From NCBI GenBank assembly GCA_947561715.1, contig OX387203.1, forward strand, positions 15,066,001-15,130,000: a stretch of DNA of 64,000 nucleotides, read 5' to 3'. Every line of letters starts with the position of its first letter. The first letter of the stretch is position 1. Made by a program: the position numbers and the translations under genes. Source of the stretch: Ascidia mentula. Its lineage: Eukaryota; Chordata; Ascidiacea; Phlebobranchia; Ascidiidae. The notes below the pieces were generated by a model. That model saw nothing but the letters and a program-made list of their open reading frames with translations. It did no database searches and was not told where the DNA came from. Positions 35,323 to 42,405 of this stretch are shown here, piece by piece.

Positions 35323-36693
35323 CTAAGTACATAAATATGCATTAAACAACTTTTGGTTCCGCAGACATTCGTGGTCTGGATCAGTCTCATTTAGAGCCAC
35401 AAAATCAGCAAGAAGTTTGTGTAGAAAGATATATTCCTCCTGAATTACAATAAACCCTTTACATGGGACAACGATTGTGCATTTGAACAACATTTACTTA
35501 CTGGAGTTTGTACCAGTTCCATTCTTTGCTGCCTCATGTTACAAACTGCCTTGGAAACATCAACCGAACCAGTTTCACTTACTTCCTTAATTAAATAGTC
35601 AAAAGCAATAAACGTCCCTGTTCTTCCAGCACCATCACTTCGAACAAAGAAAGTGAATTTTTTGTTTAATTGGTTTCAAAACTAGCATTATGTTACCTGC
35701 AATGTACAACAGTAGGCACTTGAACATTTAAGGTTCTTTGCACCTCGTCTAAGTGTATTTCAACGTCTTTATAAAATCTTAGCAAACCGGCGGTAGTTTG
35801 TGGAACTTTGTGGTCGGGCCAAGCAGTGAAGTGATATTGCGTTACGTGTCGTAACTCCTGATAAATAGTAAAATTCATATTTTCTAAAAGGAAAATTGTT
35901 GCAACACTTACCATTAAATATGCGTTGTTTAGCTCTTCAATAATCATTTTCCTGATGATAAAGCTGCCTCGATTGATAACATCAATAAGCTTTACTTTTT
36001 TCTGTGTTTGGTTTGTGCATTGTTCAAAATTTTCCGGCCAATACAGCGCACACTTAGACTAATAATTAAATTTGTAATATTGCTTTATTTGAATTTGCAA
36101 ATGTTATAGCAAACAAAACCTTTCCCATTTCGTAAAGATTAGTGAGCATTACGATAACTCGGACATTCTGTTCCCAAACCATCGTCCAAAAATCATCTAC
36201 GGTTTTTGGGATCGGTCCTTGCGTAGCAATCCACTTGTTCGGTTTCTTGAAACCCTAAAAGTGCAGAGAACGTTCGTGTTGTTTCGTAACTTTAGATTTG
36301 CCATATATTTATATCAAGTACCTTTATGTGGGATTCATTGATATATTGGTTTTCCTTTCCATCGCCACCACCAATGATCACCCGGTTGTGTTGATCTAAA
36401 GATAGTATGTTTATTAGTGCACAGATGTTTCTCACAGTTTTTGTTTAAAATCGGGAAATTTAATAACTTACATGGGATAATATTCTTGTAACGGTTTCTG
36501 TCCCACTTGTTTTCCTTATGGTGACATTCGAAACAGCCTTTTGCTTTAATTTTGATGATCAAAAATTTTGTTCATACATTTGATTTGACCTCAAATACCT
36601 TTACCTCAAATTGACACTTCAAACCTTGGTGCTCCTTTTTCGTGCAATCAGAGTAAAATTTTCCAAGATCATATTTCTGGATCCTTAAGGTTT
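35323..36693 (-). CDS. PTP catalytic domain exons
   Basis: Nine small exons code one classical tyrosine phosphatase domain and a short tail ending FNAYLCT. Present: phosphotyrosine loop [11 protein letters not shown] (normally YDH), [23 protein letters not shown] loop, P-loop Cys and Arg, and Q-loop. Unusual: Asp for Ala in HCS[D]GAGRTG. In IA-2/PTPRN the same Asp, together with a changed WPD loop, accompanies loss of ordinary activity; here WPD is intact. No second PTP domain follows in frame. The exon 36472-36543 acceptor does not match the phase of the preceding donor. Confidence 0.85.
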
Positions 36694-39600: not shown

Positions 39601-42405
39601 AGGACCACTTTTAGCACAAATATAGGATACATGACATCCTTAATACACAGCACCTTTTCCATGCAACCGTTGGTTTGGGAAATCCGTATGAAACACAATC
39701 AACTTGATATTGCTTCGAACTTTCGACAACCATGGATGACGTCGTGAGGGAAATATTTGGTTTAACTGCGTTTAAAATTGTGTCAACAGCCTAATTTCAA
39801 AGATGCTAACAGACACATATCTTACCGTTTAAGGTTATTTCATTGATTTTTCTGCCACCAGCCACGTTATTTTCCACACGACATTCGTAAATTCCACTTT
39901 GCATTACATCAGTTACTGTGATGTGAAGTCTGTTTGTTTGATGGTTAGTTCCTTGTTGCCAAACTTGTTGGAATATTAAAGAACTTGGTGCGTACGTAAC
40001 TAAGGAAAAAGACCTACGACAACAAAGTATAATATTTACAAACCTTTAATTTCTTGAAAATGTTTACTAATAGTTTTCGAACATTTGGATGATTGTAACC
40101 TAAAGGTTCTGCACGATGTATTAAAGTTTGTGACTATATTTTGATCCATATGACGTAGTAAATGTAAGTTCTGCAAACAAACAGAAACATTTAAAAAACT
40201 AGAACATTAAGCGAAGTGCGCTTCATATTTGCATAGTGCAGGCCTGCGCATATGTTACAAAATGTATTTCCAAAATTTATCTCACCTGTACCAACTAACA
40301 ATAGGTCTTGGGTATCCATGCGAAGTACAATCAATTACATCCTTGCGTCCGTGTTCCAAATTGACCAAGTTTTCTGTTACATCTATATTTTCTGGCACTG
40401 AAATATGCTATTGTAGTAAGAACTAAACCAAGTGTGTTCTGATACTTGAAAAAAACAAATATGATACTTTAAAATGCCACAAGTACAGCGTGTGTTTTTG
40501 TATAATAAAATAATAATGTGACTAACTTCATTTGTTAGGAAATCCAAACATGCAACAACTCCATAAAAAGTCAAAAATGCGGAATAATTTTCCTTGGCAT
40601 CCACTTTGCTCTCATACAAAGTCGCAGAGCAAATCAAGCAAATTAAAATAAGTATGATGAATCGCAAACCTTTAATTTGTAATATTTGCGTCTTTCCTCC
40701 AGCTCCATTCCAGTTTGTAGCTTCACAAACGTAACTTCCTGATTCAGCAACGTCATGAACTGTTACGTAGAGCGTTGATCGTCCATTGTAGGAGTTTGGT
40801 TGAGTTGTGTTTTGGTAAATATTGCGAGAAAACGATGTTGATACTGAAACACCGTTTCTATAACAACCAATTTTATTGGGTAAACTTATTCTTTTTGAAT
40901 TTTTATTGCGTGAATGTTAAGTAACTGATAAAATATCGTTTACAATTATAAATACATTATCACACATTGCACCTCGTGTTAAACCACAGAAACACATGTC
41001 ATACTATATTCCACGAACATTCTATTGCTGCGGAAGTATTCGCATCTTCACTCACCTGACCCACTGGACAGATGGGTTAAGATAACCATTTGCTCCACAT
41101 ACAACTGTTTGTTGTGTTCCGTAGTTTGCCACAACTTCACTTTTGTCCAGTGAAATGTAAAAAGACTCTATTTCATACTATTATGTTACAATGGTATTTG
41201 CGTGATTGCAGTACTGATCAAACCTGGCAACTGCAGAGACACGGATCCAACAGTTTTACAACTGGTGCTAGTTCCAAAAAGTTCAATCTGTATGTTTCCA
41301 ACAAGTGATAAAGTTACACTGTTTATTATGTAACTAAAACTGGTTCCAGTGTAACTACTTTCGAGCGTTACTCGTTGGTTGTTGTTGTGAATTGCTGTAA
41401 CTATGATTGCTTCTATGTGCAATCCTAACATTTTTCCACTTATAGTGACTGAGTCACCAATGTTTGATAAATAACTTGATTGATCAAATGAGATTTGTCT
41501 TGCCCCTGCCAAGTACGATAGTTTAACTTAATGTTACGTTAATACAAACTGAATAGGCTATATTTAAATGTAGTATTTATCGTAATAAGGTTCGTCATTG
41601 TGTGCTAAATACATCTGTTTGTGAAGGAAACTCAGAAAAGCACCCTTGTTTTCACATATGTAATAGTTTGCGCGGTCGCAACTTCCAGTATTCCATCCCC
41701 AATTTCCTCCTTCCCTCTGAAGCCCAACACACAAACCTCTTCCAACACCATTCAACCATGAGGTGTATCCGATATTTGTCCATTGGGCTGTGAATAATAA
41801 TCATGAATATTTAAGAACATGAGCACGTATGTTACTTCACCTGATGGCGATGTTGATGATCTTTGAGCAAAAATTTTCCCATCAAGCCACTGAAAAGTTA
41901 ATGCATTCGTTTCCCTTTTACTTCCCAAATAGGCGTCTGTTAAGTAAAAGGATATTAATACTAAATTCATGGATGTTTCATCAATTCTCGTACAAATATT
42001 TCCATCACCGTATCCCCACTTTTCTTGTGCTGTGGTAACAAGATAGTTTTGTGTTGCTGTATCCGGGACACTTGCCAGTGTTCCACCATTTTCACCACAT
42101 TTTATATTGGCGTTATACCATGTTGGACCCGATGAATCGTATTCCGATAAAACGTAAAAGCGACCAACACAACTGGTTGCAATTGTTCCTAATTCAAACA
42201 GACTGTAAGTTGGTAAACCGGGCTGTATCGTAACTTCAGATTTCAGATAAAGTGTTAACAGCAACATGTTTACGGATGAAATTTAGGAGAATGTTGCTAC
42301 ATTTTGACGACACCTCAACTACCAACACTTCTTACCTATTACGTATCCATTTCCGCATACACACAACCAAACTATCAAACACAAACTCCTACCAGAAACT
42401 TCCAT
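35323..42405 (-). CDS. Receptor tyrosine phosphatase with C-type lectin, Ig and FN3 ectodomain (28 exons)
   Basis: Type I membrane phosphatase. Exon 1 (42336-42405) codes the signal peptide [21 protein letters not shown]-type lectin: 41841-42233, 41644-41787 ([16 protein letters not shown]). Ig-like module: 41224-41505. Five split Ig domains: 41056-41167/40670-40857, 40286-40397/39826-40013, 39654-39765/39306-39487, 39089-39200/38782-38960, 38608-38719/38359-38543. One-exon Ig: 38014-38306. Degenerate lectin: 37796-37954, 37618-37731. FN3: 37290-37547. TM: 36946-37042. Cytoplasmic: 36822-36892, 36605-36693, 36472-36543, 36322-36395, 36120-36254, 35912-36052, 35697-35857, 35502-35637, 35323-35439. 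The PTP domain has [29 protein letters not shown] and QTPEEYIFL. All phases agree except the 38014 Ig exon end and the 36605/36543 join. Confidence 0.8.
41644..42405 (-). CDS. Signal peptide and N-terminal C-type lectin domain of the RPTP
   Basis: Three exons joined in phase 1. The lectin domain carries [17 protein letters not shown], a WLDG strand and a C-terminal half [20 protein letters not shown] followed by ANYYICE, the normal end of a C-type lectin fold. EPN/QPD calcium-site motifs are not evident, so sugar binding cannot be assumed. The acceptor of the second exon at 42234 has a poor pyrimidine tract. Confidence 0.75.

Follow-up and report, generated by a model that had tools for sequence, protein, structure and literature searches.

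Among receptor-type protein tyrosine phosphatases (RPTPs), the R2A group (LAR, PTPRS and PTPRD) is built of Ig domains followed by FN3 domains, a transmembrane segment (TM) and cytoplasmic protein tyrosine phosphatase (PTP) domains arranged as a D1-D2 tandem. In another deuterostome, the sea urchin, the PTPRLec gene that Byrum et al. reportedly described in 2006 is said to place a C-type lectin on a receptor phosphatase. Here we analyze a locus on the minus strand, from position 42405 down to 35323, of a 64,000-nucleotide stretch of the genome of the ascidian Ascidia mentula (assembly GCA_947561715.1, contig OX387203.1, positions 15,066,001 to 15,130,000; hereafter the window). The genome's mitochondrial code is that of a tunicate, AGR standing at 13 of 16 aligned COX1 positions that are Gly in the bovine protein. 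The family to which the locus belongs resembles R2A in its succession of Ig domains, an FN3-like domain, TM and cytoplasmic PTP, and differs from it in having a lectin domain ahead of the Ig stack and a lectin-like one behind it, an Ig-fold domain that we term X, seven Ig domains, one FN3-like domain, a tandem arrangement of genes and, in the intact member L045, a single PTP domain. A single PTP is also the arrangement of the R3 RPTPs (PTPRB, PTPRJ, PTPRH, PTPRO, PTPRQ and the Ciona members), the ectodomain of which, according to the abstract of a study that includes Ciona, consists of FN3 repeats (PMC5336234), whereas lectin and Ig domains are present here; the term 'lectin' was not found in a search of the main text of that study (PMC5336234). 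A Botryllus report (Pancer et al. 1997, cited as reference 94 in PMC5465252) resembles the family as far as its title goes, which joins a tunicate C-type lectin to Ig and names no phosphatase. A literature search, with most subscription journals outside its coverage, found no lectin-bearing RPTP in a tunicate. The receptor phosphatase is a known kind of protein, while the lectin/Ig architecture and its expansion look new.

The window locus is probably a pseudogene or a non-functional allele of an expanded tunicate family of lectin/Ig RPTPs with intact members elsewhere in the genome, and we do not expect the window copy itself to yield a receptor. Its modules run, in order, from a putative signal peptide through a C-type lectin domain (CTL1), domain X, six Ig domains, a compact C-type-lectin-like domain (CTL2), an FN3-like domain and a TM to one PTP domain. 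The original prediction had described these modules as a single phase-matched chain of exons; the module order is real, but in the window the chain is broken at two points. The single exon encoding Ig6 (38014-38306) is one nucleotide shorter than in all 13 other copies compared, and this deletion, near 38045, introduces a premature TGA (38028-38026) and leaves the donor out of phase with CTL2. Within the PTP domain, 20 bp that both sister copies (L039 and L040) retain are gone at about 36557, at the acceptor of the second PTP exon (36537-36570), with the consequence that the splice acceptor of the exon carrying the NRY motif is lost.

The two sisters, which lie on the same contig and together with the window copy constitute the C71 copies and are 95.6-98.0% identical over aligned stretches of more than 500 nucleotides, are themselves damaged. 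L039 carries a Trp-to-stop change in the first lectin exon (CTL1a), a 40-bp deletion in the second (CTL1b) and LC instead of HC at the active site, and L040 lacks the signal peptide, the first lectin exon and the second exon of Ig1, and has a broken frame in X. Beside the window gene lies a rearranged PTP-tail relic of another type (31349-34462), with FN3b, TM and PTP1 on the plus strand (32650-34462) and PTP3 to PTP8 on the opposite, minus strand (31349-32342). Because all three C71 copies are damaged and a rearranged relic adjoins one of them, decay is favoured over a single sequencing error. It is unlikely that the window gene is functional, with both lesions arising from assembly errors or alleles and an intact chain carried on other haplotypes. 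Most of the gene is indeed open and in phase, it keeps the NRY, WPD, HC and Q-loop residues, and nonsynonymous divergence (dN) among the three C71 copies is low (0.000-0.031 by module). Such a reading would nonetheless have to accommodate two separate lesions of differing kind, one of them of 20 bp, sisters that are damaged elsewhere in the gene, and the adjoining relic. Among the C71 copies one ratio of nonsynonymous to synonymous divergence (dN/dS) exceeds 1, that of Ig1 (1.86), and it derives from a single pair in which very few changes occurred.

Searching the genome with the N-terminal half of the gene revealed a tandem array at C72:17.21-17.42 Mb, from which 11 long copies were fetched and compared with the three C71 copies. 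The module order is common to all 14, some exons being missing in L039, L040, L042, L046, L047 and L050, and the 11 array copies add one further Ig to the C71 order, for a total of seven; a lone half of this extra Ig in the window was a weak chance match and was discarded. The clearest member, L045, consists of 32 exons, separated by introns of 52-856 nucleotides, that encode 1525 residues without interruption from ATG to stop and with all junctions in phase. This one frame has a hydrophobic N-terminal stretch (a putative signal peptide) and, ahead of the PTP, a single additional strong hydropathy peak, placing signal peptide, ectodomain, single TM and phosphatase on one predicted protein. With L045 uninterrupted and 11 tandem relatives keeping the order plus one Ig, the predicted lectin-Ig-lectin-FN3 receptor phosphatase does read as one gene in this genome. 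L048 and L051 are modelled like L045, the former cut by the fetched stretch, and no lesion is present in the recovered exons of L043, L049 and L052, whose ends do not all fall inside that stretch. Six of the 11 array copies are thus lesion-free in the exons seen (L043, L045, L048, L049, L051 with an early stop in its last exon, and L052). No signal peptide was recovered for L041, L042, L043 and L052, and that of L049 is truncated by the fetch, as is the 3' end of L041, L043, L048, L050 and L052.

Splice sites in the array models were chosen under a phase constraint, and a phase-blind control run on three copies placed 30 of 31 (L045), 31 of 31 (L048) and 30 of 31 (L051) junctions in phase. Exon lengths are close to constant between copies, and dN/dS among array copies lies between 0.20 and 0.51 in 16 of 17 modules, the exception being the TM-juxtamembrane module (0.73). 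These low ratios indicate that the coding chain is under constraint from lectin to phosphatase; averaged over the array copies, dN/dS indicates purifying rather than diversifying selection. The array also holds a short gene (L044:2993-4725) in which the lectin start is joined directly to PTP exons, as if everything in between had been deleted.

Whether ectodomain and phosphatase belong together can be addressed across the genome. Searches with domain X from two divergent relatives returned 53 and 63 places, 63 in total, and 54 of these (a lower bound) have a same-strand PTP place downstream within 15 kb, with no other X in between for 52 of the 54. The PTP list comprised 57 places out of at least 211 genome matches, about one per gene and drawn from those parts of the contigs that contain X; additional fragments of a gene already listed were omitted, as were clusters such as those at C2 4.2 and 6.0-6.3 Mb, C67 4.8-5.0 Mb and C72 5.3-5.5 Mb, and genome match counts are lower bounds. 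Five of the 57 listed PTP places have no X upstream. Since 54 of the 63 X exons are followed by a PTP on the same strand, the two parts most likely form one gene, and the case that would have undone the original prediction, separate lectin/Ig and PTP genes, appears unlikely on this genomic evidence. A shorter subfamily at C72:16.9-17.17 Mb, read in two copies (L053 and L054), combines lectin, X and Ig with PTP exons; CTL2 and FN3 exons were not among its tblastn matches, and L053 has a hydrophobic, TM-like stretch after the last Ig exon. Further dense PTP clusters occur at C2 4.2-4.3 and 6.0-6.3 Mb, C67 4.8-5.0 Mb, C72 5.3-5.5 Mb and C72 0.65-0.74 Mb among the matches genome-wide, and Lectin_C matches at C72:5423288 and C72:5516232 fall inside one such cluster.

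It is conceivable, though highly improbable, that the frameshift is put to use, the product being a secreted lectin-X-Ig6 protein, terminated at 38026, that acts as a soluble decoy of the receptors. The reading frame from the signal peptide through Ig6 is open and in phase and the stop falls close to the end of the last Ig domain, but none of the 13 other copies has this stop, and the fourteen exons downstream of it would likely make the transcript a target of nonsense-mediated decay. Barely credible is a pair of head-to-tail genes, one for a secreted lectin/Ig protein and the other for a lectin-FN3-PTP receptor, that resemble one: about 70 nucleotides separate the window stop from the exon that follows and a hydrophobic stretch with an ATG precedes the first CTL2 exon, but that stretch is the T-rich tract before a splice acceptor, none of 13 relatives has the stop, and intact copies keep phase across the junction.

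After automatic prediction under a generic splice model had divided the exons too finely, the window model was assembled manually, with homology as a later check; all features that follow are on the minus strand. A putative signal-peptide exon (42336-42405), with its ATG at 42405 and a counterpart in the sister L039, precedes the three exons of CTL1 (42188-41994, 41936-41841 and 41787-41644). CTL1 matches the Lectin_C profile (E-value 1.5e-11, 45.4 bits against a cut-off of 22.6) and so classes as a C-type lectin-like domain. EPN or QPD and WND are the calcium-sugar motifs of sugar-binding C-type lectins, and by eye neither is present in the third lectin exon (CTL1c) of any of the 14 copies, so that CTL1 does not class with the sugar-binding lectins. 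Domain X (41224-41505) is a single exon with an Ig fold that lacks the usual Cys pair, and a scan of the lectin-X part against NCBIfam gave no match. Ig1 to Ig5 (38359-41167) each consist of a first exon of 112 nucleotides and a second exon, namely Ig1 (41167-41056, 40857-40670), Ig2 (40397-40286, 40013-39826), Ig3 (39765-39654, 39487-39306), Ig4 (39200-39089, 38960-38782) and Ig5 (38719-38608, 38543-38359). Beyond Ig6, CTL2 occupies two exons (37954-37796 and 37731-37618). Its profile matches mostly C-type lectin-like proteins (best 3.5e-5) and no Pfam family up to an E-value of 0.1, and a profile-profile comparison with CTL1 aligned 18 columns at a probability of 0.5%. The domain alignments drew on eight of the 14 copies for CTL2, four for CTL1 and five for FN3. 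Two exons, FN3a (37547-37327), which is homogenised among copies, and FN3b (37272-37170), form the FN3-like domain, and are followed by the TM exon (36946-37042), which corresponds to the hydropathy peak of L045, and by a basic juxtamembrane exon (36822-36892).

Eight exons encode the single PTP domain, the first four at 36714-36599, 36537-36472, 36395-36322 and 36254-36120 and the last four at 36058-35912, 35857-35697 (with WPD), 35637-35502 (with the P-loop) and 35439-35323 (with the stop at 35325-35323). It is a classical PTP by its Y_phosphatase matches (1.1e-74 for the window copy, with the pieces joined over the broken junction, and 3.2e-77 for L045), and L045 contains one Y_phosphatase stretch, hence a single domain rather than two, with PTPRA, PTPRS and LAR as best matches among solved structures in the PDB. 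A profile check of the joined protein bears out the lectin, Ig and phosphatase domains of the original prediction; FN3 falls below its cut-off and CTL2 is without a Pfam match. Catalytic motifs are widely kept, with NRY and WPD present in all 14 copies, HC in 13 (L039 being the exception) and DGAGRTG in every one of the 10 copies that yielded the corresponding exon. Across a split Ser codon, the joined proteins of L039, L045, L048 and L051 read CSDGAGRTG.

Several observations weigh against a family of intact lectin/Ig receptor phosphatases with a decayed member in the window. Four of the 11 array copies (L042, L046, L047 and L050) have lost an exon or a splice site or contain a stop, although the L046 defect at PTP3 could reflect a GC donor, and L051 terminates early within its last exon. 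L041 is without the PTP3-PTP4 intron, its exons being fused in frame (L041:9076-9290); an 18-nucleotide 'intron' in its model was not credible, the exons being continuous in frame, and this fusion sets the count of lesion-free array copies at six rather than seven of 11. The FN3 profile scores of 0.008 to 0.057 lie below the cut-off, the best PDB match being Contactin-1 at 0.3. The P-loop has an Asp after CS where PTPRA has Ala; IA-2 (PTPRN), a poor enzyme, has the same P-loop Asp. By analogy with IA-2, phosphatase activity may be weak, although the WPD aspartate is kept. Nine of the 63 X exons lack a PTP among the 57 listed places, which do not cover all PTP matches, and three of these nine lie at C72 15.57-15.59 Mb. 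The joined messenger RNA of ectodomain and phosphatase, which most likely form one gene, is one that we infer from genomic sequence. Finally, the window lesions, as read in the assembly sequence, could represent an allele or an assembly error.

Copies of the family do not share a single genealogy, as both nucleotide identities by module and trees disagree between ectodomain and tail. L041 and L042 are distant from the others in the N-terminal half (branch 0.41, support 100), yet fall within the main tail clade (support 100), and L048 groups with L043 and L052 from the second Ig5 exon to CTL2 (support 100) and with L046 in the tail (support 85). In approximately unbiased (AU) tests, for which the groups were named after the trees had been seen, the CTL2 group was rejected by the tail data (p-AU 5.9e-44), the tail group by the CTL2 data (4.6e-5) and the N-terminal clade by the tail data (3.6e-29), and two tests on the N-terminal data were non-significant (p 0.41 and 0.07). 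The trees distinguish at least three types of tail.

Between the exchanging parts sits the FN3a exon, the least diverged module among array copies (synonymous divergence, dS, 0.109 versus 0.186-0.910 for the others). It is 91-97% identical in nine cross pairs for which the upstream introns are 56-65% and the downstream introns 57-89% identical, it is found in 14 places at 91% or more and in two at 69%, and its high identity mostly ends at the exon edges. Gene conversion or recombination limited to the exon is the likeliest explanation on these sequence patterns, and constraint on the nucleotide sequence is a possible alternative; dual coding was rejected as the reason for conservation, with 88 and 26 stops in the other two forward frames summed over 14 copies. 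We tentatively propose that the family could be a recombining recognition repertoire, in which lectin/Ig heads would be swapped among tandem genes through the near-identical FN3 exon onto at least three types of phosphatase tail, as a phosphatase-signalling counterpart of expanded immune receptor families. In those families, the usual signalling routes are kinases, adaptors or cell-death modules.

A working scheme may be modelled on RPTPs such as CD45 and LAR. An intact member would be a single-pass protein with signal peptide, C-type lectin, X, seven Ig domains, CTL2, FN3-like domain, TM and a single PTP that preserves the catalytic residues. Its lectin-tipped Ig rod might bind a surface ligand on microbes, on other cells or on self, and ligand contact could cluster or displace the receptor, shifting the phosphatase relative to its substrates. 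The PTP would then add or remove tyrosine dephosphorylation of kinase-coupled neighbours, and a threshold of cell activation would be set. Ligand binding, direction of signalling, expression and an immune or allorecognition role are features that we infer for the family. The large number of tandem genes, together with at least three tail types and the exchange between them, suggests a repertoire for recognition, and immune or allorecognition use, our leading guess, is consistent with the expansion and the module exchange.

The phosphatase gene had also been described as lying next to a cluster of NLR genes. Three NLR-like minus-strand open reading frames (ORFs) with NACHT and NOD2_WH matches do surround it, at 7661-9103, 25615-27036 and 50027-51055 (NACHT E-values 2.4e-20, 3.4e-19 and 4.2e-14), but this adjacency says little about function. 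Retroelement remains are present in the window as plus-strand RVT_1 ORFs at 16654-18237 (1.4e-35) and 61123-61860 (3.3e-7), and elsewhere in the genome, at C1 22.4-27.6 Mb, very many C-type lectin matches occupy one stretch.

The locus also serves as a warning, since the copy that looks most remarkable in a window may turn out to be dead. If the proposed reading of the family is true, dozens of tandem receptors with a phosphatase inside would allow the idea of an inhibitory or threshold-setting repertoire to be tested in an animal closely related to the vertebrates.

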